NCBI GenBank assembly: GCA_012514775.1
Contig: JAAYZQ010000365.1
Location: forward strand, 1-18,241
Length of the DNA: 18,241 bases
Direction: 5' to 3'
Source: Anaerolineaceae bacterium
GTDB lineage: Bacteria; Chloroflexota; Anaerolineae; JAAYZQ01
Made by a program: the position numbers and the translations under genes. Positions 2,938-16,501 of the stretch are shown here, in pieces; position 1 is the stretch's first letter; each line of letters starts with the position of its first letter. Under the pieces are notes generated by a model, which saw only the letters and a list, made by a program, of their open reading frames with translations, did no database searches and was not told where the DNA came from.

Positions 2938-4062
2938 ATGAAGAGGTTACGTTGGACCTTGCTCTCGGTCCTGGGGCTGCTGCTGGCCTATGCCGCGGCG
3001 AGGTTGTTGCTGGCAGAGGCGCAGAAGTCGAGGATGTACGCAGCAGCCGAAGCGGCTGCGACAGCGGGGCAATGGCCCGAGGCATCCAGGCAGTTCCGCG
3101 AGTTGATGGCCCTCGATCCGGATTATCGAGATGCCGCCACCCGGCTCGACGAGCTGATCGAGCAGGCAGTACGTGCCGTGCCGGGTGAGCAGGATGCAAA
3201 GGCCGAGATCGAGCTGCTGCGCTGGCTCGACGCCTCGGCCGATTGGGCGAGATTGGCCGTGGCATTGGACCGCAGCGGCATCCTCATACCGGCCGGCGAG
3301 TTCCTCATGGGCAGCGACACGGGACGCGACGACGAGCGCCCCCAGCACGCCGTCTACCTGGACGCATTCGAGATCGATCGTTACGAGGTTACCAACGTTC
3401 AGTATCGCCGCTTTGTGCAAGAGACCGGCTGCGACGGACCGCTATACTGGTCCGGGGACGAGTATCCATCCGGGCAGGCTTCCTACCCTGTGGTTGGCGT
3501 GAGTTGGGAGGAGGCGAACGCCTATTGCACGTGGGTCGGCAAGCGCTTGCCGACCGAGGCCGAATGGGAGAAAGCGTGCCGCGGCACCGATGGCCGCCTG
3601 TACCCGTGGGGCGAGGCCTGGGATCCGCGCCGGGCCAACGTCGATATCTCGGCCCAGGCCTTGTCACCGGCGGCCCGGGTTGGCTCTGAGGAGGCGTGGA
3701 GTGCGGCCTGGCAACTCTTGCGGGAAACGTCCGCGGAGGCCGGGGCGCCGGGGCTACGGCCTGTTGGCTCGTATCCCGAGGGCTCCAGCCCCTACGGGGT
3801 TATGGATCTGGTTGGCAATGCGTCGGAGTGGATATTCGATTGGTACAACTGGGGTGACTACTCGGACATGCCGGCGCACAATCCCCTCGGCTCAGGGCCG
3901 CCATGGAATCACTGCGTGCGCGGCACCCCGTGGCACGATCCGGTCGGGACCGCAGCCTGGGTGCAAGACATGAGCCGCTGTTCGGCACGAAACTCCTCCC
4001 ACGGGAGCCTGGATCCGCGGGCCGGGTTTCGCTGCGCGCGCTCTGTTGCCGGAGAGCAGTAG
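2938..4062 (+). CDS. Membrane-anchored SUMF1/FGE-sulfatase-domain protein, lacking the catalytic cysteines
   Basis: The product is 374 residues from the ATG at 2938. The frame is open upstream to 2761, but the promoter at 2857-2885 and the clean hydrophobic N-terminus favour 2938; the ribosome site is weak (CGAGG, about 12 nt away). Residues 6-25 form a membrane anchor. Residues 33-78 form a TPR-like helical pair (QWPEASRQFRELMALDPDY). Residues 114-369 are an FGE-sulfatase domain, shown by IPAGEFLMGS (117-126), DRYEVTN (147-153), KRLPTEAEWEKA (202-213), LYPWGE, DLVGNASEW (290-298), an RGTPW segment and GFRCARS at the end. Aligned on RCSAR (347-351), the two active cysteines of human FGE (336 and 341) correspond to Thr and Gln here. 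It is therefore unlikely to make formylglycine and more likely a binding or structural FGE-fold protein, as in many Chloroflexota and Planctomycetota. Confidence 0.85.
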   Translation: MKRLRWTLLSVLGLLLAYAAARLLLAEAQKSRMYAAAEAAATAGQWPEASRQFRELMALDPDYRDAATRLDELIEQAVRAVPGEQDAKAEIELLRWLDASADWARLAVALDRSGILIPAGEFLMGSDTGRDDERPQHAVYLDAFEIDRYEVTNVQYRRFVQETGCDGPLYWSGDEYPSGQASYPVVGVSWEEANAYCTWVGKRLPTEAEWEKACRGTDGRLYPWGEAWDPRRANVDISAQALSPAARVGSEEAWSAAWQLLRETSAEAGAPGLRPVGSYPEGSSPYGVMDLVGNASEWIFDWYNWGDYSDMPAHNPLGSGPPWNHCVRGTPWHDPVGTAAWVQDMSRCSARNSSHGSLDPRAGFRCARSVAGEQ

Positions 4063-4064
4063 CC

Positions 4065-4086
4065 GCCGCGGGGGCATTCCCGCGGC
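4065..4086 (+). terminator. GC-rich hairpin just after the SUMF1-like gene
   Basis: An 8-bp perfect stem (GCCGCGGG, 4065-4072, with CCCGCGGC, 4079-4086) has a 6-nt loop (GGCATT) and begins 2 nt after the stop codon. The sequence after it is TGTTGCC, so the U-tract is poor. It may act as a weak terminator or protect the 3' end. Confidence 0.4.
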
Positions 4087-4117
4087 TGTTGCCAGGAGGC
4101 GCTACGTCATTTGTACT

Positions 4118-4146
4118 AGCCGCTTTTGAAGGCGGTTGCGGCTTTT
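4118..4146 (+). terminator. Rho-independent terminator candidate between SUMF1-like gene and signalling operon
   Basis: AGCCGC (4118-4123) pairs with GCGGCT (4138-4143) around a 14-nt loop, and the stem runs directly into TTTT (4143-4146). An inner CCGC/GCGG pairing is an alternative fold. It faces the plus strand and separates the SUMF1-like gene from the next promoter. Confidence 0.5.
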
Positions 4147-4194
4147 GACAGAGGGGATTTGGGCCTGGACGCCGATGCGCGGCGGGCCGCCAGG

Positions 4195-4203
4195 TGATAT
4201 ACT
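4195..4203 (+). promoter_or_regulatory. Extended -10 promoter of the seven-gene signalling operon
   Basis: TGATATACT contains the extended element TGn followed by TATACT (4198-4203), five of six matches. No -35 is seen at 16-18 nt upstream; the TTGACA at 4145-4150 is too far away. Transcription near 4210 would give a leader of about 26 nt before the ATG at 4237. Confidence 0.5.
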
Positions 4204-4236
4204 GGCGGAAACCGTGCTGTGAAGGCGTCTGACCCT

Positions 4237-5595
4237 ATGGCAACAGAAGGAAGGCAGTCTCGACCCCTGTCGCGCCGCGCATTCATGCGCCTGGCCGGCG
4301 CCGCGGCCGCGAGCGCCACGCTGGCGGCCTGTTCCCCCACCCTCAGCTCGCGGGCAAGCAGGGATGGCAAGGTCCAGCTCGTTTACCAGGATTGGCGCAC
4401 CGACTGGTTCCCGGAGATGGCCCAGCAGATGCTGGAGGAATTTCACGAGACCCACCCCAACATCCAGGTATTCTACACGCCCGATCCCGAGAACCTGCTG
4501 GAGCAGATGCCCCTGGACATGGAGTCCGGGACGGCCCCCGACGTCCTGGCGGGCTGCTGCGATTGGCTGCCGGCCTGGGGCCAGCAGGGCTACCTGCTGG
4601 ACCTGGCGCCCTACGTCCGGGCCGACCTGGACCGGGATACCATCGAGGAGTGGGACCCGGCCCAATACCGCGCGCTCTTTACCCCCGATGGCCTGCAGTT
4701 CGCCCTGCCCAAGTACCACGGGGCCCTGGCGCTGTATTACAACAAGGGGCTGTTCGACGCGCGCCGCGTCGATTATCCCGATGCCTCCTGGGACCACGAG
4801 GATTACCTGGCCGCCATGAAGCGCGTCTGCGGCGACCGGAACCGGGCCGGGGTGCCCGAGATTTGGGGCAGCATGATGGACGTCGCCTGGGACCGGATCC
4901 AGGTGCACGTCAACGCCTGGGGCGGGCGCTTTGTCAACCCGGCGGACGCCACGCGCAGCATGATGGCCATGCCCCCCTCGCTGGAAGCCATGGAGTGGAT
5001 CCGCGGCCGGATGTGGGACGACCGGCTGATGGCCAGCTTCCTCGACGTCCAGAACGTGGAGACGCGCCGGGCCTTTGTCGACAGCAGGATTGCCATGGTG
5101 GAGGACGGCTCCTGGGCGCTGAAGGACATCCTGGCCGGGGCCAATTTCTCCGTGGGCGTGGCGCCCATGCCCGCCGGGCCCGTGCGGCGGGCCACGCTGG
5201 CCACCACCGACGGCTTTGCCATCTATTCCGGGACGCGTTATCCGGAGGCGGCCTGGGAGCTGGTCAAGTTTCTCATCAGCCGCGAGTACGGCCTGGCCAT
5301 GGCTCGGGCCAACTTCTTGCAGCCGGCCCGCGCGTCGCTCATCGATCAGTGGGTGGAGATCGTGCGCAGAGAGTTTGCCACCCGGACCCGGGACGTGGAC
5401 ATTGCCGTCTTTGCCGACGGTCACCTCAACGGCTATTCCGTCACCGCCGAGGTCTTTGCCAACCAGGCCGAGGCGAGCCGCCTGGCCAGGGCTGCCTGGC
5501 AGCAGATCTTTACCCTGGGGCAGGCCCCCGTCGACCTGATGCGCGAGGTATCGTCCCAGATCGAGGCGCTTCAGAAGCCGCGCCGGGAGGGCTAG
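4237..5595 (+). CDS. Extracellular solute-binding lipoprotein (family 1 type), Tat-exported, no permease genes nearby
   Basis: The product is 452 residues. I chose the ATG at 4237, with GAAGG about 11 nt upstream; a GTG at 4219 is in frame but would leave almost no leader from the promoter at 4195. The N-terminus is a Tat lipoprotein signal: twin arginines (SRRAFMR, R13-R14), a hydrophobic run and the lipobox LAAC with Cys32. The mature part has the shape of sugar-type ABC binding proteins (SBP_bac_1): an early strand with DWRTDW, FHETHPNIQV, APDVLAG, LALYYNKGLFD, then RRAFVDSRIAMVEDGSWAL, TTDGFAIYSGTRYPEAAWELVKFL. Such proteins normally deliver substrate to an ABC permease, but none follows. 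Instead the next gene begins one base after the stop and encodes a Cache-domain phosphatase. It may therefore serve as a ligand receptor for that sensor. The ligand is unknown. Confidence 0.9.
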   Translation: MATEGRQSRPLSRRAFMRLAGAAAASATLAACSPTLSSRASRDGKVQLVYQDWRTDWFPEMAQQMLEEFHETHPNIQVFYTPDPENLLEQMPLDMESGTAPDVLAGCCDWLPAWGQQGYLLDLAPYVRADLDRDTIEEWDPAQYRALFTPDGLQFALPKYHGALALYYNKGLFDARRVDYPDASWDHEDYLAAMKRVCGDRNRAGVPEIWGSMMDVAWDRIQVHVNAWGGRFVNPADATRSMMAMPPSLEAMEWIRGRMWDDRLMASFLDVQNVETRRAFVDSRIAMVEDGSWALKDILAGANFSVGVAPMPAGPVRRATLATTDGFAIYSGTRYPEAAWELVKFLISREYGLAMARANFLQPARASLIDQWVEIVRREFATRTRDVDIAVFADGHLNGYSVTAEVFANQAEASRLARAAWQQIFTLGQAPVDLMREVSSQIEALQKPRREG

Positions 5596-7782
5596 GTGGT
5601 GCGTAGCCGGTGGCGGCAGCTCCGCGCGCGGATTCTCACCTGGTCCTTTGTGCCCACGGTGGCCATCCTGGCGGCAGTCGCCGTCCTCACCTTCCTGTCC
5701 TACGAGGGCAAGCTCGAGGACGAGATCGAGGCCCGAAACCGGGAGCGCACCTACCAGGCGGCCAGCCGCCTGCGAGAAGAGGTGCTCAAGTTCTCGGAGC
5801 CCCTGGTCAGCCTCGCCCGGACCCTGGCGATTTACGAGGACTATCCCGTGGGCCAGCGCTCGGCGCTGCAAGACGCCCGGCGGCGCCTGGCGTCCTTTGA
5901 CGGCGGCGTGGTCCTCCTCGACAGCCGCGGCCAGGTGATGGGCGCCGAGCCGGGCCGCCCCGAGATCTTTCGCCAGGACTGGTCGGACCGGCTCTTTTTC
6001 CGGCGCCTGCTGGGCGGCGAGGGCGTCGTCGTGTCGGACGCCCTGGCCGACGGCCCGCAGGGAAGCCAGGTGGTCGTCGTCGCGGTGCCCATCACGAGCC
6101 ACCGCGGCGACTTTCTGGGGGCCCTGGCGGGCATGTTTCGCCTGGGCGAGCCGACCATCAGCGCCTTTTACGCCAGCCTGGTGCGCCTGCGCATCGGCGA
6201 GCAGGGGACGGCCATCCTCGTCGACTCCAGCGGGCAGGTCATCTATCACCCCCAGGCGAACCAGATCGGCACGCAGTTCGAGGACCCCGACCTGTTGGGC
6301 CGCGTCCTGGCGGGGCAGATCGACGCCTACCGCGACGGGGAGCGGGTGGTGGGCATCGCCCCGGTGCCCGGCACGCCGTGGGGCCTCGTCACCGAGGACG
6401 AGTGGGCCAGCCTGACCAGTGCCAGCCGCAGCTATCAGCGGCTCCTCCTGGGGCTGCTCATCCTGGGCATTGTCCTGCCCGCAGTGGGGTTCGGGTTCCT
6501 GGCCCACGAACGGCGCCGCGAAGCCCTGGACCGCGCCCGCCTGGAACAGCAGATGCGCGTGGCGCGGGTCATCCAGCAGACCCTGCTGCCCAAGTCCATG
6601 CCCAACCTGGCCGGCTGGCGGGTGACGGGCCATTACCAGCCGGCGCAGGCCGTGGGCGGCGACTTTTACGATTATGTGAGGCTGGACGACGGCCGCCTCG
6701 GGCTGCTCATCGGCGACGTGACCGACAAGGGGGTGCCCGCGGCCCTGGTCATGGCCACGACGCGCAGCCTGTTGCGCTCCACGGCCCGTGGCTCGGGGTC
6801 GCCGGGCCAGGTGTTGCAGCAGGTGAACGAGCTGCTGGTGCGCGAGATCCCACCCAAGATGTTTGTGACCTGCCTGTACGCCATCCTGGACCCCAAGACG
6901 GGCAGGCTGCGCTTTGCCAACGCCGGCCACAACCTGCCCTACCGCACGCGGAACGGGGCGCGCAACGGCAGCGGCCAGGCGGTCGAGCTGCGGGCCACGG
7001 GCATGCCCCTGGGGCTCATGTCGGGCATGGTGTACGAAGAGGTCGAGACGACCATCGAGCCGGGAGAATGCCTGGTCTTTTACAGCGATGGGCTGGTGGA
7101 AGCCCACAACTCGCACCGCGAGATGTTTGGCAACGCCCGCTTGCAGGCGATCCTGAGCCAGGGGGCCGCCCAGTGCCCGACCCTCATCCAGCGCCTGCTG
7201 TCCGAGCTGGAGAGCTTTACCGGGCGGGGCTGGCAGCAGGAGGACGACGTCACCCTCCTCACCCTGCACCGGGGCACGCCCGAGGATTGCGGGCCCCGGG
7301 ACAAAGCCGGGTCGCCCGGCGTGGGCCACTGGCAGATCCTGGACCACTTCTCGCTGCCCAGCGAGCCCGGCGGCGAGCACCACGCCATTGAGAAGGTGAG
7401 CCGGGCCGTGGACAGGCTGGGGCTGTCGCCCCGGCAACTGGACCGCCTGCAGACGGCCGTGGGCGAGGCGACGATGAACGCCATGGAGCACGGCAACGAA
7501 TATCGCGCCGAGCTTCCCGTGGACATCGAGGTGCTGTGCTCTTCCGAGGCCATCGCCGTGCGCATCACCGACCAGGGGAACGGGCCTCCCCCCGGAGAGC
7601 CGGAAGAGCCCGACATCGAGGCCAAGATCGCGGGGCTCCAGTCTCCCCGCGGCTGGGGGACCTTTCTCATAAAAAAGATGATGGACTGCGTCAACGTCGT
7701 CCAGGACGAGACAGGGCACACCGTGGAGCTCGTCATGCTGCGAGCGCAGCAAGGAAAGGAAAACGCCGGTGCAGCACCTTGA
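5596..7782 (+). CDS. Membrane sensor: dCache domain - SpoIIE-type PP2C phosphatase - RsbW-like HATPase
   Basis: The product is 728 residues. It starts with GTG at 5596, directly after the previous stop, or at the adjacent GTG 5599; GGGAGG at 5585-5590 can serve either. Transmembrane helices are at about 14-35 and 281-303. The segment between them (about 37-275) is extracellular and looks like a double Cache sensor, ending with PGTPWGLVTEDEW. There is no HAMP domain; a short helix (HERRREALDRARLEQQ) leads into the PP2C domain. That domain is complete, with metal-binding acids in GGDFYD (354-359), GDVTDKG (373-379), YSDGLVE (496-502) and EDDVT (549-553). Residues 580-716 are an RsbW-like ATPase with N-box ATMNAMEHGN (625-634, Glu624 just before), ITDQGNG (657-663) and RGWGTFLIKKMMD. 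The family dephosphorylates (PP2C) or phosphorylates (HATPase) STAS proteins; two STAS genes follow. Confidence 0.93.
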   Translation: MVRSRWRQLRARILTWSFVPTVAILAAVAVLTFLSYEGKLEDEIEARNRERTYQAASRLREEVLKFSEPLVSLARTLAIYEDYPVGQRSALQDARRRLASFDGGVVLLDSRGQVMGAEPGRPEIFRQDWSDRLFFRRLLGGEGVVVSDALADGPQGSQVVVVAVPITSHRGDFLGALAGMFRLGEPTISAFYASLVRLRIGEQGTAILVDSSGQVIYHPQANQIGTQFEDPDLLGRVLAGQIDAYRDGERVVGIAPVPGTPWGLVTEDEWASLTSASRSYQRLLLGLLILGIVLPAVGFGFLAHERRREALDRARLEQQMRVARVIQQTLLPKSMPNLAGWRVTGHYQPAQAVGGDFYDYVRLDDGRLGLLIGDVTDKGVPAALVMATTRSLLRSTARGSGSPGQVLQQVNELLVREIPPKMFVTCLYAILDPKTGRLRFANAGHNLPYRTRNGARNGSGQAVELRATGMPLGLMSGMVYEEVETTIEPGECLVFYSDGLVEAHNSHREMFGNARLQAILSQGAAQCPTLIQRLLSELESFTGRGWQQEDDVTLLTLHRGTPEDCGPRDKAGSPGVGHWQILDHFSLPSEPGGEHHAIEKVSRAVDRLGLSPRQLDRLQTAVGEATMNAMEHGNEYRAELPVDIEVLCSSEAIAVRITDQGNGPPPGEPEEPDIEAKIAGLQSPRGWGTFLIKKMMDCVNVVQDETGHTVELVMLRAQQGKENAGAAP

Positions 7783-8173
7783 GGCTGGCGTGCGGCGCCT
7801 GCCCGGCGCCGCCATCGTCGAGATGCGCGGAGAGGTGGACGGCTTTGCCGAGGGAGTGCTCGACAGGGCCTACACCGCCGCCGAAGAAGCTGATCCCGGA
7901 GCCATCATCCTGGACATGGGCGACGTGCGCTACATCAACAGCAAGGGGATCGCCCTGCTCGTCGTGTTGATCATGCGGGCCAGGCAGGCGCAGCGGCGCA
8001 TCCTGGCCTACGGGTTGTGCGAGCACTTTCGCGAGATCTTTCAGATCACCCGGTTGTCGGACTATATCGCCATCTATGACGACGAGGAGAGCGCGCTGGC
8101 CGGGGCCGCGTGGGACGGCCCCCAGAAAAGGGAACGTACCGGAAACGGGACCAGGTTTCAGGCAACGCCCTGA
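7769..8173 (+). CDS. STAS-domain anti-sigma-factor-antagonist-like protein (first of two)
   Basis: The product is 134 residues from GTG 7769, which overlaps the end of the phosphatase gene by 14 nt; AAAGGA lies 8 nt before it, so translation is probably coupled. The STAS fold is seen in AAIVEMRGEVD (14-24), AIILDMGDVRYINSKGIALL (45-64) and ILAYGL...IFQITRL (78-96). Ser58 in INSKG sits where SpoIIAA/RsbV proteins carry the phosphorylated serine, so it is a candidate substrate for the upstream HATPase and PP2C domains. The usual D-S-S-G is changed to N-S-K-G. After about residue 113 the tail (WDGPQKRERTGNG...) is polar and probably disordered. It is clearly a paralogue of the next gene product. 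Confidence 0.9.
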   Translation: MQHLEAGVRRLPGAAIVEMRGEVDGFAEGVLDRAYTAAEEADPGAIILDMGDVRYINSKGIALLVVLIMRARQAQRRILAYGLCEHFREIFQITRLSDYIAIYDDEESALAGAAWDGPQKRERTGNGTRFQATP

Positions 8174-8189
8174 GCCATAAGGAGGCACC

Positions 8190-8573
8190 ATGTCCAACTC
8201 GCCCAAGATCAAGGTTCGCGTTCGCCAGGCCGGCAGCGATACCTGCATCCTGGAGGTGCACGGTGAGCTGACGACCTTTGGCGAAGATCAGCTCATGGCC
8301 GCCTACAACGAAGCGTGCGACCGGAACGTGCGCAACATACTCCTGAATTTCGACGGCCTGGAGTACATGAGCAGCTCGGGCATCGGGCTGCTGGTGACGC
8401 TGCTCATCCGTGCCCAGCGGCAGCAAAAGCGGCTGCTGGCCTGTGGCCTCGACGAGCACTATCGCCACATCTTTGAGCTGACGCGGCTGAACGAGGCCAT
8501 CAGCCTCCACCCCGACGAGGCGTCGGCCCTGGCGGCCGCCGCCAAGCCGGCCGAACAAGCCTATCCCTGGTGA
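8190..8573 (+). CDS. STAS-domain anti-sigma-factor-antagonist-like protein (second of two)
   Basis: The product is 127 residues from ATG 8190, with AAGGAGG about 6 nt upstream, 16 nt after the first STAS gene. Motifs are TCILEVHGELTTF (18-30), ILLNFDGLEYMSSSGIGLL (50-68) and LLACGLDEHYRHIFELTRL. The phospho-serine position in M-S-S-S-G is Ser62, and the segment is closer to the canonical D-S-S-G than in its neighbour. The shared C-terminal pattern (GL-EH-R-IF-TRL-DE-SALA) shows that the two arose by tandem duplication. The family role is to bind an anti-sigma kinase when unphosphorylated. The stop codon lies inside the first unit of a 15-bp tandem repeat that leads into the next gene. Confidence 0.93.
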   Translation: MSNSPKIKVRVRQAGSDTCILEVHGELTTFGEDQLMAAYNEACDRNVRNILLNFDGLEYMSSSGIGLLVTLLIRAQRQQKRLLACGLDEHYRHIFELTRLNEAISLHPDEASALAAAAKPAEQAYPW

Positions 8574-8625
8574 GGAAGGCCCTGGTGAGGGATGCCCTGG
8601 TGAGGGATGCCCTGGTGAGGGAAGC
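8566..8625 (+). repeat. Four tandem copies of a 15-bp unit spanning a stop/start junction
   Basis: The units are 8566-8580, 8581-8595, 8596-8610 and 8611-8625. Units 2 and 3 are identical (CCTGGTGAGGGATGC); unit 4 differs from them by one base and unit 1 by three. Every unit contains GTGA and a GAGG Shine-Dalgarno-like core. The second STAS gene ends in unit 1 (TGA 8571-8573), and the ATG of the ATPase gene begins 1 nt after unit 4. The repeat length is a multiple of three, so copy changes do not shift frame: read in the ATPase frame it encodes VRKAL-VRDAL-VRDAL-VREA. Confidence 0.97.
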
Positions 8626-8626
8626 C

Positions 8627-11341
8627 ATGTTTGTCGATCGCGAACATGAATTGGCGAGCCTGCATCGCCACCTGGCCGAGGCCCTTGCCGGCAACGGCCA
8701 GATCTGCTTTGTGGCGGGCCAGGCGGGCAGCGGCAAGACGGCCCTGGTCCACCATTTCGTGGAACAGGCCTTTGCCGCCAACGCGGAGGTCGCACTGGCC
8801 GCGGGGAGCTGCAACGCCCAGACGGGCGCGGGCGACCCCTACCTGCCCTTCCGCGAGGCCCTGGCGATGCTCACCGGGCAGGTGACGGCCAAGGGCGCGA
8901 AGGCAGGCGGCCCGGCCGAAAACGATCGCCGCCTGCGAACGGTGCTGGTCCGCTCGGTCCAGATCCTGGTGGAAGTGGCGCCCGACCTCGTGGGCGTCCT
9001 CGTGCCGGGGGGCAAGCTCATCGGCGAGTTCGGGAAGGCCATCGCCGAGAAGGTGGGCTGGATGGATCGCCTGGAGTTGCTGGCGGAGAAAAAGGGGCTG
9101 GCCGCCGGCGCGGGCGAGACACCGGCGGAGCAGAGCCGCATCCTGGAGCAGTACACGTCCTTCCTGCAGCGGTTGAGCCAGAAGATCCCCCTTATCCTCT
9201 TCCTGGACGACCTGCAATGGGCCGATGGCGCGTCCATCAACCTCCTTTTTCACCTGGGCCGCCGGTTGGAATCCAGCCGGGTCCTCATCATCGGCTCGTA
9301 CCGGCCCAACGACCTGGCCGCCGGCCGCGAGGGCCAGCGCCATCCCCTGGAGCCCGTCCTGAACGAGCTGACCCGCTATTACGGCGACATCACGCTGGAC
9401 CTGGACGCCATCTCCGAGGAGGGCCAGCGCCGGTTCGTGGACTCGCTCCTCGACTCGGAACCGAATGCCCTGGGAGTAGAGTTCCGCGCGGCGCTTTTCC
9501 GGCACACGGGCGGCCACGCCCTCTATACCGTGGAGCTGCTGCGGGCCATGCAGGAACGCAAGAACATTGTCAAGGACGCCCGGGGGCGCTGGATCGAAGG
9601 GCCGACGCTGGACTGGAGCACGCTGCCGGCCCGCGTCGAGGGCGTCATCGAAGAGCGCATCGACCGCCTGAGCCCCGACCTGCGCGAGATGCTGCAGGTG
9701 GCCAGCGTCGAGGGCGAGCGGTTCTCCGCCGAGGTCATGGCGCGGGTACAGTCGATGCCCGAGCGAGAGGTGGTCCGCCAGCTCAGCGGCGAGCTCCAGA
9801 GGCGCCATCGCCTCATCCAGGCGGAGGGCCTGGTTCAGGTGGGCTACGTGCGGCTGTCGCTCTACCGTTTTGCCCATAACCTGTTCCACCATTACCTCTA
9901 CAACAGCCTGAGCGACGCCGAGCAGCTCTACCTCCACCGCGACGTGGGCCAGGCGCTTGAAGAGCTGGCCGCCGGGCAAACGGAAGAGATGGCCGCGCAA
10001 CTGGCCCACCACTTTGAGAAGGCCGGCCTGCTGGACAAGGCGGCGAGGTACCGGCTGCAGGCCGCCAACCGCGCCAGGCGGCTGTCGGGCTACGACGAGG
10101 CGGCGGCACACCTGGTGCGAGGCCTGGAACTGGCGGCCGGCCTGCCCCCAAGCCCGCAGCAGATGCAACTGGAGACCGAGCTGCAGATCACCCTGGGCAT
10201 GGTCTTTATCGCCCTCTTTGGCTACGGCTCGCCCCGCGTAGACCGGGCCTTTAGCCGTGCCCGGGAGCTGGTGCATCTCATGGGCGATCCGCCCCAGTCG
10301 GCGCAACTGCTGCTGGGCCAGTTGGTCTTTTACCTGATGCGGGGCCAGGTGGGCCACGTTGCCGAAGAAGGCTCGCGCCTCCTGGTCATGGCCCAACAGG
10401 CAGGCGACACGGCTTGTACCCTCATCTGTCACCTGCTGTTGGGCATCTCTGCCATGTACGGCGCCCGGTACGAGACCGCCCGGCAACAGTTGGAGCTCGT
10501 CATCGCCCTCTACAACCCGGGGCTCCACGCCGATCTGACGCACGCCTACGGCCAGGACCCCTGCGTGGCGGCCCATTCCTTCCTGTCGCGCACCATGTGG
10601 CTCCAGGGGCTGCCCGACCAGGCCCGGGAGGCGAGCAAGAGATCGCTGGCCCTCGCCGAGCAGGTCAACCACCCCTACAGCCGCACCATGGCCTCCATCC
10701 ACGCCGCCAGCCTCCACTCCTACCTGCGAGAATGGCCCGAGTGCTATGCCGAGGCCGGCCGGGCCTTTGACCTGGCCCGGGAGCGGGGCTTTGGCGCCTG
10801 GCAGGCCAACGCCAGCATGCTGCGCGGCCTGGCCCAGGTGCACCTGGGCCAGGTGGAGGCCGGACTGGCCGAGCTGACCCAGTCCCTCTTCTTGTGGGAG
10901 GCCAGCGGCGCCGGGCTGGTGTCATATGGCCGCACGAGCCTGGCCGAAGCCTACCTGGTGGCCGGCAGGCAGGCCGAGGGGCTAAGGGCCATAGAAGAGG
11001 CCCTCTACCCCAACGAGGAGGCCTGGTACCTGCCGGAGCAGTACCGGCTGCATGCCGAACTGCTCCTGTTGGAGCCCGGCTTTGAGGACGAGGCGGGCGA
11101 GCTACTGCGCAAGACCCTCGACCTGGCCGGCGCGCAACAGTCCCGGGCGCTGGAGCTGCGCGCGGCCCTCAGCCTGGCCCGCCTCTGTGCCCGCCAGGGC
11201 CGCCAGGCCGAAGGGCTGGCCGTCCTGGAAAGCTGCTACGCCGGTTACCAGGAGGGCCACGATACCATCGAGCTGCGGCAGGCCCGGGAGCTGCTGGCAA
11301 CCGCCCAGGCGACGCCCGAGCCGGAGCAGCCCCTGGCTTGA
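8627..11341 (+). CDS. AAA (AAA_16/STAND-like) ATPase with C-terminal TPR-like repeats, no DNA-binding domain
   Basis: The product is 904 residues from ATG 8627, which has GGTGAGG 6 nt upstream and begins with the usual 'F-V-x-R-E-x-E-L' opening of these ATPases. In-frame GTG codons at 8570, 8585, 8600 and 8615 inside the tandem repeat would add up to 19 residues. Walker A is GQAGSGKT (31-38) and Walker B is LILFLDD (189-195), followed by LQWAD. A winged-helix-like linker follows (ARVEGVIEERIDRLSPDLREML). From about 440 to 890 the protein is an array of helical TPR-type repeats, for example HHFEKAGLLDKAARYRLQAANRA and LAEAYLVAGRQAEGLRAIEEAL. The layout resembles MalT/LAL regulators, but there is no LuxR helix-turn-helix at the end, and no kinase or cyclase domain at the start. 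It is probably a signalling hub whose partners are other operon products. The short gap favours co-translation with the STAS genes. Confidence 0.87.
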   Translation: MFVDREHELASLHRHLAEALAGNGQICFVAGQAGSGKTALVHHFVEQAFAANAEVALAAGSCNAQTGAGDPYLPFREALAMLTGQVTAKGAKAGGPAENDRRLRTVLVRSVQILVEVAPDLVGVLVPGGKLIGEFGKAIAEKVGWMDRLELLAEKKGLAAGAGETPAEQSRILEQYTSFLQRLSQKIPLILFLDDLQWADGASINLLFHLGRRLESSRVLIIGSYRPNDLAAGREGQRHPLEPVLNELTRYYGDITLDLDAISEEGQRRFVDSLLDSEPNALGVEFRAALFRHTGGHALYTVELLRAMQERKNIVKDARGRWIEGPTLDWSTLPARVEGVIEERIDRLSPDLREMLQVASVEGERFSAEVMARVQSMPEREVVRQLSGELQRRHRLIQAEGLVQVGYVRLSLYRFAHNLFHHYLYNSLSDAEQLYLHRDVGQALEELAAGQTEEMAAQLAHHFEKAGLLDKAARYRLQAANRARRLSGYDEAAAHLVRGLELAAGLPPSPQQMQLETELQITLGMVFIALFGYGSPRVDRAFSRARELVHLMGDPPQSAQLLLGQLVFYLMRGQVGHVAEEGSRLLVMAQQAGDTACTLICHLLLGISAMYGARYETARQQLELVIALYNPGLHADLTHAYGQDPCVAAHSFLSRTMWLQGLPDQAREASKRSLALAEQVNHPYSRTMASIHAASLHSYLREWPECYAEAGRAFDLARERGFGAWQANASMLRGLAQVHLGQVEAGLAELTQSLFLWEASGAGLVSYGRTSLAEAYLVAGRQAEGLRAIEEALYPNEEAWYLPEQYRLHAELLLLEPGFEDEAGELLRKTLDLAGAQQSRALELRAALSLARLCARQGRQAEGLAVLESCYAGYQEGHDTIELRQARELLATAQATPEPEQPLA

Positions 11342-11352
11342 AAGGAAACGTT

Positions 11353-13011
11353 ATGTCAAAACCTGTTCTGCTGACCATCGACGACGATCCGGAAGTCCTC
11401 CAGGTCGTAGGCCAGGACCTGCGGCGCCACTATGGCAAGGACTATCGCGTCTTGCAGGCATCCTCGGCCGACGAGGCGCTGGAGACCGTCGAGCAGCTGC
11501 GCCTGCGGGGCGACTCGGTGGCCCTGTTCCTGGTCGACCAGCGTATGCCGGGCAAGAACGGCGTCGAGTTTCTGCAGCAGGCCATCGAGATCCATCCCAC
11601 GGCGATGCGCGTCCTCCTGACGGCCTACAGCGATACGGAGGCGGCCATCCGGGCCATCAACGACGCCCGCGTGCACCACTACCTGCTCAAGCCCTGGCAC
11701 CCGCCGGAGGAGCACCTCTACCCCATCCTGGACGACCTCCTGGCCGAATGGCAGGCCACCTTCCGCCCCTCCTTTGCCGGCGTGCGGGTCATTGGCCACC
11801 GCTGGTCACCCAAGACGCACCAGGCCAAGGATTTCATGGCCCGGAACCAGGTGCCGTACAGTTGGCTGGACCTGGAAAAGGAGCCCGAGGCTGCCCGCCT
11901 CATGGCCCAACTCGGCCTCCAATCGCCGGCGCTGCCCCTCCTGCTCTTTCCCGACGGCGAGTGCCTCCAGGCCCCCAGCAACCAGGAGATCGCGGCCAAG
12001 GTCGGGCTGCAGATCCGGGCCGAGAGCGCGCTGTACGACCTGGTGGTCGTGGGCGGCGGCCCCGCCGGCCTGGCGGCGGCCGTCTATGGCGCGTCCGAGG
12101 GTCTCAGCACGCTGGTCATCGAGCGCGAGGCACCCGGCGGCCAGGCGGGCATGAGCTCTCGCATCGAGAACTACCTGGGGTTTCCCTCGGGCATCTCCGG
12201 GGGCGAGCTGGCGCGGCGGGCGGTCATCCAGGCGCGGCGCTTTGGCGCCGAGATCCTCTCCACGCAAGAGGTGGTGGGGCTCGTGGTGCAGGGCGCCTAC
12301 CGGGGCGTCGTCCTGCGCGACGGCACCGAGGTCGGCGCCCGGGCGGTGGTCATTGCCACGGGGGTTTCGTACCGGCGCCTGGACGTGCCCGGCACCGAGG
12401 CGCTGACCGGCGCGGGTGTGTACTATGGCGCGGGCATGACGGAGGGCCAGTCGGTGCGCGACGAGGACGTGTACATCGTCGGCGGCGCCAACTCGGCGGG
12501 ACAGGCGGCGGTCTATTTCGCCGACTATGCTCGCACGGTCTACATGTTGGTTCGGGGCGAGTCGCTGGCGGTCACCATGTCGCACTACCTGGTGGAGCGG
12601 CTGCAGGCCACGGAGAACATCTGCATCCGCACCTGCACGCAGGTTACGGGCGCCATGGGCAACGAGCACCTGGAGGCGCTCATCCTCACCGACACCAGCA
12701 CGGGCCAGGCGGAGACCGTGCCCGCCACCAGCCTGTTCATCTTTATCGGCGCCCGGCCCCACACCGATTGGCTGGGGCAAGAAGTGCTCCGCGACCAGCA
12801 CGGTTTCGTCGTTTCCGGCCGCGAGCTGATGGACGGGGATCGGCCGCGGGCCTGGCCGCTGCAGCGCCTGCCCTACACCCTGGAGACCAGCGTGCCCGGC
12901 GTCTTTGTCGCCGGAGACGTGCGGCAGGGCTCCATCAAGCGCGTGGCGTCGGCCGTGGGCGAGGGCTCTATCGTCGTGCAGTTCGTGCATCGCTACCTGG
13001 CGGAGGTGTGA
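11353..13011 (+). CDS. Response-regulator receiver fused to thioredoxin-reductase-like flavoprotein; redox cysteine pairs absent
   Basis: The product is 552 residues from ATG 11353, with AAAGGAAA a few nt upstream, 11 nt after the ATPase gene. Residues 4-125 are a receiver: acidic pocket D10-D12, phospho-acceptor Asp62 in VDQRMPGKNG, Thr90, and Lys113 in LLKPW. Residues 142-220 look like a thioredoxin/glutaredoxin-fold domain, but where a CxxC would be it reads HRWSPKTHQ with no cysteine. Residues 228-550 are a thioredoxin-reductase-type two-dinucleotide fold: FAD site VVGGGPAGLAA (232-242), APGGQAG, NAD(P)H site VGGANSAGQAA (376-386), and GVFVAGD (516-522). The CxxC expected after YYGAG is missing (GAGMTEGQ). 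The architecture is known in databases as 'fused response regulator/thioredoxin-disulfide reductase'. Without cysteines it cannot do classical disulfide exchange, so electron transfer to another partner or a sensing role is more likely. Confidence 0.92.
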   Translation: MSKPVLLTIDDDPEVLQVVGQDLRRHYGKDYRVLQASSADEALETVEQLRLRGDSVALFLVDQRMPGKNGVEFLQQAIEIHPTAMRVLLTAYSDTEAAIRAINDARVHHYLLKPWHPPEEHLYPILDDLLAEWQATFRPSFAGVRVIGHRWSPKTHQAKDFMARNQVPYSWLDLEKEPEAARLMAQLGLQSPALPLLLFPDGECLQAPSNQEIAAKVGLQIRAESALYDLVVVGGGPAGLAAAVYGASEGLSTLVIEREAPGGQAGMSSRIENYLGFPSGISGGELARRAVIQARRFGAEILSTQEVVGLVVQGAYRGVVLRDGTEVGARAVVIATGVSYRRLDVPGTEALTGAGVYYGAGMTEGQSVRDEDVYIVGGANSAGQAAVYFADYARTVYMLVRGESLAVTMSHYLVERLQATENICIRTCTQVTGAMGNEHLEALILTDTSTGQAETVPATSLFIFIGARPHTDWLGQEVLRDQHGFVVSGRELMDGDRPRAWPLQRLPYTLETSVPGVFVAGDVRQGSIKRVASAVGEGSIVVQFVHRYLAEV

Positions 13012-13012
13012 G

Positions 13013-14425
13013 GTGACTGACCAGAAGCCCCCTATCTCCACCTCCGCGGATGCGCTGCCCCTGACGGCCCCGCTTGCGCCGGACGAGTACAAGTGGCTGG
13101 CGGGGCAGGGCACCCGGGTACACCTGGACCCCGGGCAAGAGATCGCGAACAATGGCGAGCTGGCGGACAACTTTTACATCCTCGTGGATGGCGAGGTGCG
13201 CGTCGCCCGGCAGGGCGACGCCGAAGAACGGGTCCTGACCTGTGCCGAGGACGAGGAGCCCCTCCTCATCGGCACGCCGTTCCTGGCCAGCGTGCGCGCC
13301 GTCCGGTCCAGCCGCCTGGTAAAGGTCGGCGCCGAGACCTACCTGCGGCAGGTGCAGGCCACCTCGCCGGCGAACCACCTCCTCGTCTCGGGCCTGGTGT
13401 GGCGCCTGCGGGCCGCCGAGTCGCTGTTGCACCAGAACGAGAAGCTGGCGGCCCTGGGACAGATGTCGGCGGGGCTCACCCACGAGCTGAACAACCCGGC
13501 GGCCGCCGGCCGGCGCGCCGCGGGCCAACTGCGCGAATCACTGCGCAGGCTCCACCGCCTGACCTTTACCCTCCAGGACCAGGACCTGAAACCGGGCCAG
13601 ATCCTGGAGCTGGCCGCGCTCCAGCAGGAGGCTGTCGACCAGGCCAGCGCCACCGTGGGCAACCGCCTGGAGATCAGCGACAAGGAGGAGGAGCTGAGCC
13701 GCTGGCTGGAGGAGAGAGACATGGACGAGCCGGGGGAGCTGGCGCCGCGGCTCGTGTCCAGCGGCCTCGACCGGGCCAGGGTGGAGGAGCTGGCCGGCAG
13801 GCTGTCGCCCATGGCGCTGGAGGCCGCCCTGCGTTGGGTGGGCAGCGTGGCGGGCGTGGGCGAGCTGCTGCGCATCGTGGAACAGAGCACGGCGCGCATC
13901 TCGGAGCTGGTCGCCGCCGTCAAGGCGTACACCTACATGGACCGCGGCTCTCGCCAGGAGGTGGACGTGCACGCCGGACTGGAGAGCACGTTGCTGATCC
14001 TGGGCCACAAGCTCCAGGACATCAAGGTGGAGCGCGACTACGAGGACGACCTGCCGGCCATCGAGGCCTTCGGAGGGGAGCTGAACCAGGTGTGGACCAA
14101 CCTCCTGGACAATGCCATCGACGCCCTTGGAGAGGACGGAGGGCACATCCGGATACGCACCTGGCGCGAGGGGCCGCGGGTCGCCGTCGAGATCGCCGAC
14201 GACGGGCCGGGCATTCCCGAAGAGGTGCGGCCCTTCCTGTTCCGCAGCTTTTACACCTCCAAGAAGCCGGGCCAGGGCACGGGCATGGGCCTCACCATCG
14301 TCTACCAGATCGTGGCACAGCGCCACGGCGGCGAGATCACGGTCACCTCGCAGCCGGGCGACACGCGCTTTCGCATCTACCTGCCCATCGAGGCCGAGTC
14401 GAAGGGAAACGGAGGCACGGAATGA
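13013..14425 (+). CDS. Soluble histidine kinase with N-terminal CRP-like cyclic-nucleotide-binding domain
   Basis: The product is 470 residues from GTG 13013, 1 nt after the previous stop, with GGAGG 6 nt upstream. No transmembrane segment is present. Residues 15-115 are a cNMP-binding-like beta barrel (LDPGQEIANNGELADNFYILVDGEVRV), although the phosphate-binding Arg cassette is not obvious. The H-box is LGQMSAGLTHELNNP, with phospho-acceptor His157. Between it and the ATPase domain lies an unusually long helical segment (about 165-310) containing an acidic stretch (SDKEEELSRWLEERDMDE). The HATPase domain (about 318-460) is complete: N-box QVWTNLLDNAIDA (359-371, Asn367), G1 ADDGPGIP (395-402), and G2 GTGMGL (422-427). 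It probably phosphorylates Asp62 of the receiver fusion encoded just upstream; this pairing is inferred from adjacency. It is the last gene of the block. Confidence 0.9.
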   Translation: MTDQKPPISTSADALPLTAPLAPDEYKWLAGQGTRVHLDPGQEIANNGELADNFYILVDGEVRVARQGDAEERVLTCAEDEEPLLIGTPFLASVRAVRSSRLVKVGAETYLRQVQATSPANHLLVSGLVWRLRAAESLLHQNEKLAALGQMSAGLTHELNNPAAAGRRAAGQLRESLRRLHRLTFTLQDQDLKPGQILELAALQQEAVDQASATVGNRLEISDKEEELSRWLEERDMDEPGELAPRLVSSGLDRARVEELAGRLSPMALEAALRWVGSVAGVGELLRIVEQSTARISELVAAVKAYTYMDRGSRQEVDVHAGLESTLLILGHKLQDIKVERDYEDDLPAIEAFGGELNQVWTNLLDNAIDALGEDGGHIRIRTWREGPRVAVEIADDGPGIPEEVRPFLFRSFYTSKKPGQGTGMGLTIVYQIVAQRHGGEITVTSQPGDTRFRIYLPIEAESKGNGGTE

Positions 14426-14556
14426 TGGCCAGGGCCGGGCGGCTACGCCATTTGTCGGAAGCCCTGGGGCAATTGACGCATCACGGCTGGCCGGAGGCCC
14501 GTCCTTTTGCCCGGACCCGGTTCCGGCATAGGGCCGATGCGTGCCCGGCCGGGGCG
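14426..14556. other. Short intergenic region after the signalling operon
   Basis: No gene is seen here. A 5-bp hairpin (CCGGA 14511-14515 with TCCGG 14522-14526) has no U-tract, so it is at best a weak terminator. TTGACG at 14473-14478 has no matching -10. Confidence 0.4.
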
Positions 14557-14565
14557 TGTTATGAT
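14557..14565 (+). promoter_or_regulatory. Extended -10 promoter of the lone receiver gene
   Basis: TGTTATGAT contains TGn followed by TATGAT (14560-14565), five of six -10 matches. No good -35 is seen. It has the same build as the extended -10 at 4195. Start of transcription near 14572 rules out the ATG at 14572 as a likely start codon and supports a downstream one. Confidence 0.5.
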
Positions 14566-14607
14566 TGAGCGATGGCAGCCAGCATGAAGGGACGGGGCAT
14601 AGAAACA

Positions 14608-15012
14608 ATGAAAACGGATACCCCGGCACTGATCGTCGCCCGGCCGGGCCGCCTGCGCGACGCCTGGCGGGCGCTGCTCATGGCCACCCCCCTCATTGGG
14701 CAGGTTCACCAGGCCGACGACGAGCCCTCGGCGTTGGGCCTGGTCGAGTCCGTCCAGCCGCAATTGGTCCTGCTCGACAGCGACATGGCCGACGGAGCGC
14801 CATGGCGGCTGCTGCAGCAGATCAAGGCCGACCACCCGGAGTGCGGGTCCGTCGTCCTCGTCTGCAGCCTGCGGGAACGGGCCCAGGCCGAAGCAGCGGG
14901 CGCCGACGTGGTTCTGCTGCGCGGCTTTCCCGCCGAACGGCTGTTCCAGGTCATCGAAGAGCTGCTTCACCGCCGGAGCATCGCCGGCACGCTGGGCGAC
15001 GCGCCGGCCTGA
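14608..15012 (+). CDS. Stand-alone degenerate receiver-like protein
   Basis: The product is 134 residues from ATG 14608, with a GGGACGGGG stretch ending about 10 nt upstream. In-frame ATGs at 14572 and 14584 are possible but would fall at or close to the predicted transcript start. The alternating strand/helix pattern fits a CheY-like fold: PALIVA (6-11), QLVLLDSDM (52-60), SVVLVCSLRE (81-90), ADVVLLRGFP (99-108). Asp57 is in the phospho-acceptor place. The rest of the active site is altered: the acidic pair after strand 1 reads ARPGR, the Thr/Ser of strand 4 is Cys86, and the conserved Lys of strand 5 is Arg105. It could be an atypical or phosphorylation-independent receiver. It follows the histidine kinase but is probably a separate transcript. 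Confidence 0.72.
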   Translation: MKTDTPALIVARPGRLRDAWRALLMATPLIGQVHQADDEPSALGLVESVQPQLVLLDSDMADGAPWRLLQQIKADHPECGSVVLVCSLRERAQAEAAGADVVLLRGFPAERLFQVIEELLHRRSIAGTLGDAPA

Positions 15013-15075
15013 CGCGGATGCCGGGGCCCCTCCGCCTCGCGCCGCGCGCGGCAGCCGTTCCTGCCCCGGCCCGGC

Positions 15076-15104
15076 TTGACAAATCTGCCGGTTCACGGTA
15101 GCCT
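15076..15104 (+). promoter_or_regulatory. Sigma70-type promoter of the CoA-disulfide-reductase-like/thioesterase operon
   Basis: A perfect TTGACA (15076-15081) is followed by 17 nt and TAGCCT (15099-15104), which keeps the key T, A and final T of the -10. Transcription near 15111 would place the palindrome at 15118-15136 in the first part of the leader. Confidence 0.55.
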
Positions 15105-15117
15105 ACCCCTGCACGCA

Positions 15118-15136
15118 ACCTGGCGTTGCGCCAGGT
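15118..15136. promoter_or_regulatory. Perfect 8-bp inverted repeat in the leader: operator or RNA hairpin
   Basis: ACCTGGCG (15118-15125) and CGCCAGGT (15129-15136) are exact reverse complements around TTG. The element lies just after the predicted transcription start and 5 nt before the AGAGGAGG ribosome site. It could be a repressor operator or a hairpin that affects translation. No U-tract follows, so it is not a terminator. Confidence 0.65.
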
Positions 15137-15157
15137 CATTCAGAGGAGGAAGGAAAG

Positions 15158-16501
15158 ATGGCAGAAAGGCTCGTCGTTATCGGCGGGGTAGCGGCCGGCA
15201 TGAGCGCCGCCGCCAAGGCCAAGCGCACCAGGCGCGACCTGGAAGTGGTGGTCTATGAGAAGGGCGGCCACATCTCGTACGCCGCCTGCGGCCTGCCCTA
15301 TTTCCTGGCCGGCGACGTGCCCCACATCGAGGAGCTCATCGTGCGCACCCCCGAGCAGATGGCCAAGCAGGGCGTGGAGGTCAAGGTCCACCACGAGGTG
15401 ACGTCCATCGATCCCGGGGCCAGGACGGTGTGGGTCCACGACCTGGAAGGCGGCCGGTCCTTCGAGCAGCCCTACGACCGCCTGGTGATTGCCACCGGCG
15501 CGCGGCCGTCGTGCCCGCCCCTGCCCGGCTGCGAGCTGGGGGGCATCTTTGGCCTGCGCTCCCTGGAGTCGGGGCTCGCCATCCAACGCTATCTCCGGGA
15601 AGATAAGCCCAAGAGCGCCGTCATCGTCGGGGGCGGCTACATCGGGGTCGAGATGGCCGAAACGCTGCGGCGCCTGGGCCTGGAGGTGACCATGCTGGTC
15701 CGGTCGGGCAAGGTGTTGCGCGCCACCCTCGACGACGACATGCGCGAGCTGGTGCACGCCGAGTTGAGCCGCCACGGCGTCGAGATCGCGGAAGGCCCGG
15801 CCGTCGGCTTTGAGGGGGACGACGACGTGGAGTCCGTGCAGGCCGTGGGCGAGGAGTATGCCTGCGACACGGTGATCCTCGGCCTGGGGGCGGAGCCCAA
15901 CGTGGACCTGGCGCGCGCCGCGGGCATCGCCCTGGGCGCCACGGGGGCCATCGCCACGGATGACCAGATGTGCACCAACCTGCCCGGCGTCTATGCCGCC
16001 GGCGACTGCGCCGAGGCGTTGCACCTGGTCACGGGCAGGCCCGCCTGGGTGCCCCTGGGCAGCACGGCCAACAAGCAGGGCCGCGTGGCGGGCAGCAACG
16101 CCGCCGGCAAGCCGGCGACCTTTGGCGGCATCCTGGGAACCATGATCGTCCGCTGTTTCGACCTGGCCGTGGGCTTTACGGGGCTGACGTCGTTGGAAGC
16201 GCGGGCGGCCGGCTACGACGTCCAGGAGTTCAAGATCCAGGCCAGCGACCTGTCGCACTATTTTCCCGGCACCGCCGAGGCCCACGTCAAGCTCGTCGTG
16301 GACGGCGACAGCGGGCGGCTCCTGGGCGGGCAGCTCGTGGGGCCCCACCGCGCCATCAAGCGCATCGACGTCCTGGCCACGGCCCTCTACAACCGCATGA
16401 CCGTGCCCCAGATCCAGGAGCTGGACCTGGGCTACGCGCCGCCCTTTGCGCCGGTGTGGGACCCCGTCCTGGTGGCAGCCAACGTGGCGGCGAAGGATTG
16501 A
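15158..16501 (+). CDS. CoA-disulfide reductase-type FAD/NAD(P)H oxidoreductase
   Basis: The product is 447 residues, the usual length of CoADR/NADH oxidase-type flavoproteins. ATG 15158 follows a strong purine-rich site (AGAGGAGGAAGG). FAD is bound through VVIGGVAAGMSAA (6-18) and VYAAGDCAE (278-286), and NAD(P)H through VIVGGGYIGVE (155-165). The single catalytic cysteine is Cys44 in SYAACGLPYF. The two tyrosines used by S. aureus CoADR have likely counterparts here: Tyr368 (HYFPG) and Tyr426 (LGYAPPF). The reaction expected is NAD(P)H-dependent reduction of CoA disulfide or CoA persulfide/polysulfide. There is no C-terminal rhodanese domain. A water- or peroxide-producing NADH oxidase, or a polysulfide reductase of this family, remains possible. 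It is cytosolic and forms an operon with the thioesterase 8 nt downstream. Confidence 0.85.
   Translation: MAERLVVIGGVAAGMSAAAKAKRTRRDLEVVVYEKGGHISYAACGLPYFLAGDVPHIEELIVRTPEQMAKQGVEVKVHHEVTSIDPGARTVWVHDLEGGRSFEQPYDRLVIATGARPSCPPLPGCELGGIFGLRSLESGLAIQRYLREDKPKSAVIVGGGYIGVEMAETLRRLGLEVTMLVRSGKVLRATLDDDMRELVHAELSRHGVEIAEGPAVGFEGDDDVESVQAVGEEYACDTVILGLGAEPNVDLARAAGIALGATGAIATDDQMCTNLPGVYAAGDCAEALHLVTGRPAWVPLGSTANKQGRVAGSNAAGKPATFGGILGTMIVRCFDLAVGFTGLTSLEARAAGYDVQEFKIQASDLSHYFPGTAEAHVKLVVDGDSGRLLGGQLVGPHRAIKRIDVLATALYNRMTVPQIQELDLGYAPPFAPVWDPVLVAANVAAKD

Follow-up and report, generated by a model that had tools for sequence, protein, structure and literature searches.

A solute-binding protein gene beside a predicted phosphatase-kinase receptor, two STAS genes and a STAND-type ATPase gene: a candidate ligand-gated partner switch in an Anaerolineaceae bacterium

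LuxPQ is an example of a sensor kinase that is activated by a solute-binding protein (SBP). The sections of PMC11113362 cited here describe SBP-activated chemoreceptors, sensor kinases, protein kinases and diguanylate cyclases/phosphodiesterases, with no phosphatase among them; they report that the genes were adjacent or very near in 10 of 11 characterised SBP-kinase couples, and they also give that study's own cases without binding. Inputs that can be exchanged have precedents in the RsbQ/RsbP-PAS unit, which in the cited part of PMC3183031 is attached to a PPM phosphatase, a histidine kinase or a diguanylate cyclase, and in the coiled-coil linker of RsbU, for which the cited portion of PMC12143880 proposes that phosphatases, kinases and cyclases can swap sensory domains by way of helical linkers. 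Partner switching need not have a known endpoint, the target of SypA being described as unknown in the excerpt of PMC8256260 used here. Here we describe seven consecutive genes in an 18,241-nucleotide stretch of contig JAAYZQ010000365.1 from an Anaerolineaceae bacterium (the whole stretch is called the window below), which encode an SBP, a dCache-PP2C-HATPase membrane receptor, two STAS proteins, a STAND-type ATPase, a receiver-flavoprotein and a CRP-kinase.

On balance, we lean towards a reading in which the first five genes form an SBP-gated partner switch with the ATPase as candidate target, while the last two form a separate two-component pair. Comparison of genes and proteins across genomes demonstrates the pairing of SBP with Cache and of PP2C-HATPase with STAS, the intactness of the predicted catalytic sites and the mixed kinship of the receptor. 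The block is made of known signalling modules, which are also found separately; it is their combination that is new, rather than an entire machine. More tentatively, we propose that the SBP directly sets the phosphatase/kinase switch, that the STAS proteins act on the STAND ATPase instead of a sigma factor, and that SBP-Cache is an exchangeable cartridge for kinases, phosphatases and phosphatase-kinases.

The SBP has a twin-arginine motif and a lipobox (by eye), and its best-scoring solved chains were Lmo0181, an arabino-oligosaccharide-binding protein, maltose-binding protein and GacH. Relatives were sought in 396 genomes of one class (that of genome G001; by inference, Anaerolineae). Scoring in the draws from this class and from the phylum was confined to two to four candidates in each genome, which makes every count of places a minimum. 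At E-values up to 1e-80, SBP matches were found in 22 of the 396 genomes at 23 places, one at 36% identity and 22 at 57-68%, the latter family coming from 21 genomes (wide regions were used for 20 of its 22 places and narrow loci for the other two). The next same-strand gene encoded a dCache-region protein in 21 of the 22, with a spacing of ~60 bp or less in 19 of the 21; the SBP gene thus stands beside the gene of a receptor with an extracytoplasmic domain, the arrangement of SBP-activated receptors. The sole place without a Cache match is L192 (genome G168), where the SBP reading frame is broken. Of the 21 neighbors, six were of the Cache-PP2C type, although L208 showed no PP2C motif while its Cache-PP2C match extends to query residue 448, and 15 were closer to Cache-kinase. 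Every one of the 14 wide kinase-type loci has an H box, which in L209 stands in a shifted frame, and the fifteenth locus is cut short; L189, whose sequence ends before the output domain, was labelled from its Cache alone. Both pairings, SBP with Cache-kinase and SBP with Cache-PP2C, occur in genome G100. When a tree of SBPs was built (L192 omitted), the window SBP and six PP2C-coupled SBPs fell on one side of a branch with 98/97 support, the coupling label requiring one change, a value as low as which was reached in 0 of 500 shuffles. Distances among SBPs and among Caches were correlated over 24 pairs (r 0.78, 0 of 2000 permutations; L189 and L192 omitted) and over the 17 kinase pairs (r 0.86, 0 of 2000). 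Since adjacent genes travel together, this correlation reflects joint inheritance, not binding.

Other arrangements were seen around these genes. The 36% paralogue (L193) is followed directly by an ATP-binding cassette (ABC) permease gene. In L072, L073 and L075, from three genomes and found through the PP2C search, SBP, Cache-kinase, single receiver and GAF-PP2C genes stand in the same order, an arrangement in which a phosphorelay could connect the same SBP input to a PP2C. Four of the six SBP-Cache-PP2C loci have, as their next gene, one for a membrane protein of 537-591 aa that looks alike in all four and is a possible partner; the two that were scanned gave a weak GAF match only.

The phosphatase domain of the receptor matched Pfam SpoIIE at 177.9 bits. 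Its metal-binding residues D356, D374, D498, D550 and D551 were invariant in 23 alignment rows and, in the locus rows, were retained in 97/101, 89/101, 89/94, 90/93 and 92/93, respectively; the kinase residues E624 and N628 were found in 73/74 and 74/74 locus rows. SpoIIAB and RsbW were among the solved relatives, and the receptor is predicted to carry a PP2C phosphatase and an RsbW/SpoIIAB-type kinase in which the catalytic Glu and Asn are kept. In the AlphaFold2 model (mean predicted local distance difference test score [pLDDT] 78, predicted template-modelling score 0.41), Cache and PP2C are joined by one helix spanning residues 270-330 (pLDDT 65-71), and the best solved match, by profile and fold alike, was Rv1364c (3ke6). 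The two halves of the receptor gave different trees. With the PP2C domain, the window grouped with the Cache-less, STAS-linked family and three GAF-PP2C rows, and a branch with 100/98 support split this group from six SBP-linked Cache-PP2C rows; this tree used 22 hand-picked triplet rows, had long branches among the six SBP-linked rows and included L208 half filled. With the Cache, in a quick tree without bootstrap, the window and its database relatives grouped with the SBP-linked Cache-PP2C rows and were split from the kinase-linked ones with an SH-aLRT (approximate likelihood ratio test) support of 100. Because the trees are discordant, the input and output halves of the receptor have different nearest kin, and the protein looks like a recombinant whose Cache would derive from an SBP-linked receptor and whose PP2C-HATPase part would derive from a STAS-linked protein.

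Protein searches scored ~8000 candidates each, yielding 7940 PP2C, 3131 ATPase and 8000 receiver-flavoprotein relatives, the best 120 of each being listed. Taxa were named for five close PP2C relatives among the matches listed: four Anaerolineae (P0022, P0046, P0050 and P0066) and one Halothiobacillaceae (P0060). A genome scan for PP2C relatives confirmed 559 loci, and the counts that follow concern the best 80 of these (L001-L080), whose titles include Chloroflexota and Actinomycetota among others. PP2C and HATPase were joined in 69 loci, and the genes that follow encoded two STAS proteins in 58, one in 9 (4 of the 9 near a contig end) and none in 2; among the 11 PP2C loci without HATPase, 9 had no STAS and 2 had one. 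The putative phosphosite was Ser in 70 of 71 loci and Thr in the other for both STAS queries, which can match each other's genes.

In the same 80 loci, the genes around the Cache-less PP2C-HATPase-STAS-STAS triplet were also recurrent. A ~265-aa protein without Pfam or NCBIfam match was encoded downstream in 53 and a CrtO-like flavin adenine dinucleotide (FAD) oxidoreductase downstream in 39 (e.g., the L066:12169-14400 region), and the triplet, the ~265-aa protein and the CrtO-like enzyme may make up a wider partner-switch gene cluster. A lipoamide-dehydrogenase-like flavoprotein was encoded upstream of the PP2C gene in nine (L016, L021, L024, L028, L032, L036, L056, L066 and L067).

The ATPase matched AAA_16 at 88.7 bits, with Walker motifs recognized by eye. 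Its TPR part had no Pfam match in the window protein and is drawn from the structure model and from PF13424 in many relatives. The model contains confident TPR-like helices to residue 913, while residues 351-444, where a winged-helix middle domain would be expected, have pLDDT <50; its top Foldseek match was 6mfv, a STAND protein with TPR, at a template-modelling score of only 0.23-0.30. Pfam and the model together give the STAND layout of an N-terminal NTPase followed by a repeat superhelix, and Pfam found no DNA-binding domain in the protein. Relatives at E-values up to 1e-100 occurred in 74 of the 396 class genomes, and the closest kin are 904-919 aa long. Of two longer relatives scanned, L091 (43% identity) carries an N-terminal BTAD domain and L089 does not; several others start alike by eye. 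On a 3.9-kb contig (L086), the end of the PP2C gene, STAS, STAS and ATPase genes follow one another in that order at 53-69% identity. Contig sizes were also compared, using 49 near-full-length PP2C rows of 120 (P0046, P0057, P0064-P0066 and P0068 onward omitted), the complete ATPase list of 120 rows and rows 1-18 of the 120 for the flavoprotein. Contigs of exactly equal size linked 12 of the 49 PP2C relatives to the ATPase list, compared with a mean of 0.3 in shifted controls; one contig, of 5195 bp, could not accommodate all four genes (PP2C, two STAS and ATPase), leaving 11 of the 12 matches possible. Such matches are indirect evidence: they suggest shared contigs and say nothing on gene order.

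At E-values up to 1e-130, the receiver-flavoprotein was found in 44 of the 396 class genomes at 47 places, and 30 loci were examined. In 14 of the 30, the same strand carried a CRP-kinase gene no more than 1.5 kb downstream; a kinase match without the CRP part lay upstream in 5, and no kinase adjoined in 11 (2 of which have <350 bp of downstream sequence). The family is wide, its named members among the matches listed including cyanobacteria, a Nitrospira and Ardenticatenaceae. Receiver residues D15, D16, D67, T95 and K118 were invariant in 19 of 19 aligned proteins, and so the receiver is intact; the CRP-kinase matched HATPase_c at 93 bits, with no HisKA match in Pfam and an H box seen by eye only. 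An intact receiver and an adjoining kinase with H box and HATPase domain are what a two-component pair would have, and we predict that these proteins form one. By contrast, CxxC was absent at either redox site (glutaredoxin-like and NADPH domains) from all 19 aligned proteins, the TrxR-like protein scored 217.5 bits against the TIGR01292 cut-off of 343.45, and the match to the glutaredoxin model TIGR02200 was weak (28.6 of 89.5 bits). A thioredoxin reductase function was rejected, since the redox CxxC is missing, and for the same reason the suggestion in the initial annotation that an internal redox state is sensed has lost ground. The Glu and Arg that we take to be typical of a cyclic-nucleotide pocket were not seen by eye in the CRP domain, and cyclic-nucleotide sensing by it is doubtful. 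In the literature searched, no work on a receiver-TrxR fusion was found among the matches listed.

In the scheme that we favor, the lipoprotein would bind a solute outside the cell, probably a carbohydrate judging from its nearest relatives, and would dock on the dCache domain of the receptor encoded next door, as the conserved pairing suggests. The signal would then pass down the single long helix to the PP2C phosphatase, which shares its chain with the RsbW-type HATPase kinase, and phosphatase and kinase would together set the phosphorylation of one Ser in each STAS protein, consistent with the conservation of the catalytic residues and of the sites. Unphosphorylated STAS proteins would bind the target, the likeliest local one being the STAND-type ATPase, which lacks the DNA-binding part of its longer relative, and the ATP-driven state of the ATPase would be the output; the choice of target and the output are the weakest steps. 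The receiver-flavoprotein and CRP-kinase would be a separate pair placed downstream in this lineage, perhaps co-transcribed.

Several observations weigh against this scheme. Searches with the full dCache-PP2C-HATPase protein gave no match with a Cache at E-values up to 1e-150 in the 396 class genomes or up to 1e-140 in 400 genomes of the phylum (two candidates per genome in each); nor, at the cut-offs used, was there a full-length match in the orders of G053, G104 and G030 (2, 9 and 1 genomes). No SBP was seen beside the 60% PP2C relatives. L086 holds only the C-terminal end of the PP2C-HATPase protein, and it is the only one of 30 narrow ATPase loci with PP2C or STAS within the 1.5-kb flanks, 29 having neither. 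The SBP-Cache correlation is not significant for the seven PP2C-coupled pairs (r 0.42, 292 of 2000 permutations), and the cited text of PMC11113362 reports neighboring SBP-sensor pairs without detectable interaction. Absence of permeases beside the SBPs helps little: the L193 permease had no match in 25 SBP loci, but since permease matches are rare in all loci (2 of 229 fetched loci; an EAA pattern in 2 of 189 others), this is weak evidence and expected by chance. Finally, the target of the STAS proteins may be a sigma factor encoded elsewhere.

This last point amounts to an account of its own, which we judge possible but rather unlikely, in which SBP, Cache-PP2C-HATPase and the two STAS proteins release a sigma factor encoded outside the block, the ATPase being either uninvolved or a regulator in its own right. 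The PP2C, HATPase and STAS proteins do match models and structures of RsbU/SpoIIE, RsbW, SpoIIAB and Rv1364c, and among the best 80 of the 559 PP2C loci, no adjoining ATPase exceeded 30% identity except in L065 (47%), which is without the normal triplet. However, as the initial annotation had stated, Pfam found neither a sigma-factor nor a DNA-binding domain among the window proteins scanned, and adjacency to the ATPase recurs in L086, in addition to the equal-size contigs. That the SBP instead serves nutrient uptake and stands beside the receptor by accident is very improbable. It does belong to SBP families of carbohydrate transporters, and adjacency alone can mislead, as the part of PMC11113362 cited here indicates; nevertheless, a Cache gene is next door in 21 of 22 places, the SBP clade is partner-specific, and the L193 permease had no match in the 25 SBP loci.

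The initial annotation had joined all seven proteins in a single phosphorelay, which would combine an extracellular ligand with an internal state and have the ATPase and/or the flavoprotein as output. In its favor are the shared strand, the junctions of 11 and 1 bp, and the equal-size contigs (10014 and 34842) that carry ATPase and receiver-flavoprotein relatives, although these come from two close relatives (79-88% identity) and are the sole tie between the two elsewhere. A further size, 3663, recurs once among the ATPase and once among the flavoprotein relatives, but a contig this short could not hold both genes, and it was left out of the count. No contig size is common to the PP2C and flavoprotein lists (49 and 18 rows). 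Against it, all 20 wide receiver-flavoprotein loci (5-17 kb) were without PP2C, STAS or SBP, five of them having a distant ATPase match only (26-29% identity); likewise, none of 101 PP2C or SBP loci held a spanning flavoprotein match or the CRP part of the kinase, four having partial single-domain flavoprotein matches (25-38%) and nine matches to the kinase part alone. Since the receiver-flavoprotein/CRP-kinase pair thus recurs apart, we set this phosphorelay aside as the main explanation and consider it quite improbable. Conserved neighborhood, which was to support a unit, was found in part for the first five genes (the order in L086 and the equal-size contigs) and failed for the seven. The same annotation's view of the SBP, Cache-PP2C-HATPase receptor and two STAS proteins as a sensory partner switch is supported.

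Features of the window, and of related loci where indicated, are collected in Table 1. All seven open reading frames lie on the + strand, as initially annotated, with junctions of, in order, 0, -14, 16, 53, 11 and 1 bp, the likeliest starts of the ATPase, receiver-flavoprotein and CRP-kinase genes having been refined to 8627, 11353 and 13013. The domain labels first assigned to them have Pfam support, apart from the TPR part of the ATPase, which comes from the model and relatives, and the kinase H box, which was seen by eye. The degenerate receiver gene begins 182 bp past the CRP-kinase gene on the same strand, and has Arg in place of the receiver Lys (by eye).

Table 1. Coordinates of the seven-gene run, a following receiver gene and membrane protein genes of related loci.
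Feature	Position	Strand	Basis and remarks
Solute-binding lipoprotein (SBP, SBP_bac_1)	4237..5595	+	Pfam PF01547, 95.7 bits; putative input protein
Membrane receptor, dCache-long helix-PP2C (SpoIIE)-HATPase_c_2 (RsbW-like)	5596..7782	+	Pfam, AlphaFold model, Rv1364c 3ke6 match
STAS 1, anti-anti-sigma type, putative phosphosite Ser58	7769..8173	+	Pfam PF01740; TIGR00377 53.6 vs. cut-off 53.45
STAS 2, putative phosphosite Ser62	8190..8573	+	Pfam PF01740; TIGR00377 59.4 bits
STAND-type ATPase, AAA_16 + low-confidence middle + TPR-like superhelix	8627..11341	+	Pfam, structure model, Foldseek
Receiver + cysteine-free glutaredoxin-like stretch + TrxR-like flavoprotein lacking CxxC	11353..13011	+	Pfam, NCBIfam
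CRP-like domain + histidine kinase (HELNNP box by eye, HATPase_c)	13013..14425	+	Pfam
Degenerate receiver standing alone; may be an eighth gene of the run	14608..15012	+	Pfam Response_reg 30.4 bits, cut-off 30.2
Membrane protein after SBP-Cache-PP2C	L195:4733-6475, L202:9563-11338, L205:3223-4962, L211:9788-11401		L211 copy cut at contig end

A pattern scan of positions 3800-15300 found no promoter-like sites, where 0.7 were expected, and eight terminator-like sites, against 4.5 (sd 2.1) in shuffles, those on the + strand all lying within the PP2C gene; these results have little bearing on co-transcription either way. Rfam gave no match to a structured RNA in the window, a defense system was rejected (no PADLOC match for the six proteins scanned), and in viral contigs, 51 stretches fitted the search pattern, none a relative. 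Upstream on the same strand, an FGE-sulfatase-type protein is encoded at 2938-4062, ending 174 bp before the SBP gene; further upstream, the minus strand encodes a PrsW-type intramembrane protease and a trypsin-like protease (1772-2722 and 3-1109). Downstream on the same strand, positions 15158-16501 encode a CoA-disulfide-reductase-like flavoprotein (441.6 bits vs. a curated cut-off of 578.8).

If the favored reading is true, control by SBPs extends to protein phosphatases, beyond the kinases, cyclases and chemoreceptors, and a single SBP-Cache input can be followed through three types of output, providing a natural test of the idea that helical linkers make inputs exchangeable, as advanced in the cited part of PMC12143880. 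The STAND ATPase would then be a candidate target for a partner switch with no sigma factor nearby, and the state of an extracellular solute would be coupled directly to an ATP-driven protein assembly. No SBP-driven SpoIIE/PP2C phosphatase or partner switch was found among the matches listed in the literature searched.

Among known systems, the SBP-activated sensor kinases of PMC11113362, as presented in the sections cited, resemble the window in that an SBP gene adjoins a membrane receptor gene, and 15 of the 21 Cache neighbors are indeed of the kinase type; in the window, however, the output is a predicted serine phosphatase/kinase. SypE-SypA, from the excerpt of PMC8256260, shares kinase/phosphatase partner switching on a STAS protein. 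The phosphatase domain of SiaA (6k4e) was among the fold matches of the receptor. To our knowledge, SypE-SypA and SiaA have other sensory domains, with no SBP and no STAND ATPase. Rv1364c (3ke6) likewise has phosphatase and RsbW kinase domains in one chain, also carries a STAS domain and acts on SigF. Its match to the receptor spans PP2C and kinase only, whereas the window adds a dCache domain, two separate STAS genes, an SBP and an ATPase. In RsfS-RsfR, a sensor kinase controls a receiver-PP2C protein acting on an anti-SigF antagonist, which resembles the gene order of L072, L073 and L075; unlike the window, it ends in SigF, has its phosphatase separate from the membrane sensor and has no SBP named in the cited portion of PMC10950880. 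The RsbQ/RsbP-PAS module is similar in that neighboring genes encode a separate protein and a sensory domain that together make up the input, and differs in that, according to the text cited from PMC3183031, a hydrolase and a PAS domain take the places held here by an exported SBP and a dCache domain, one branch of which is fused to a phosphatase-kinase with two STAS genes. Although the words transmembrane and extracellular are absent from the main text of PMC12143880, the window receptor looks like the sensory-domain exchange that is proposed there for RsbU linkers.

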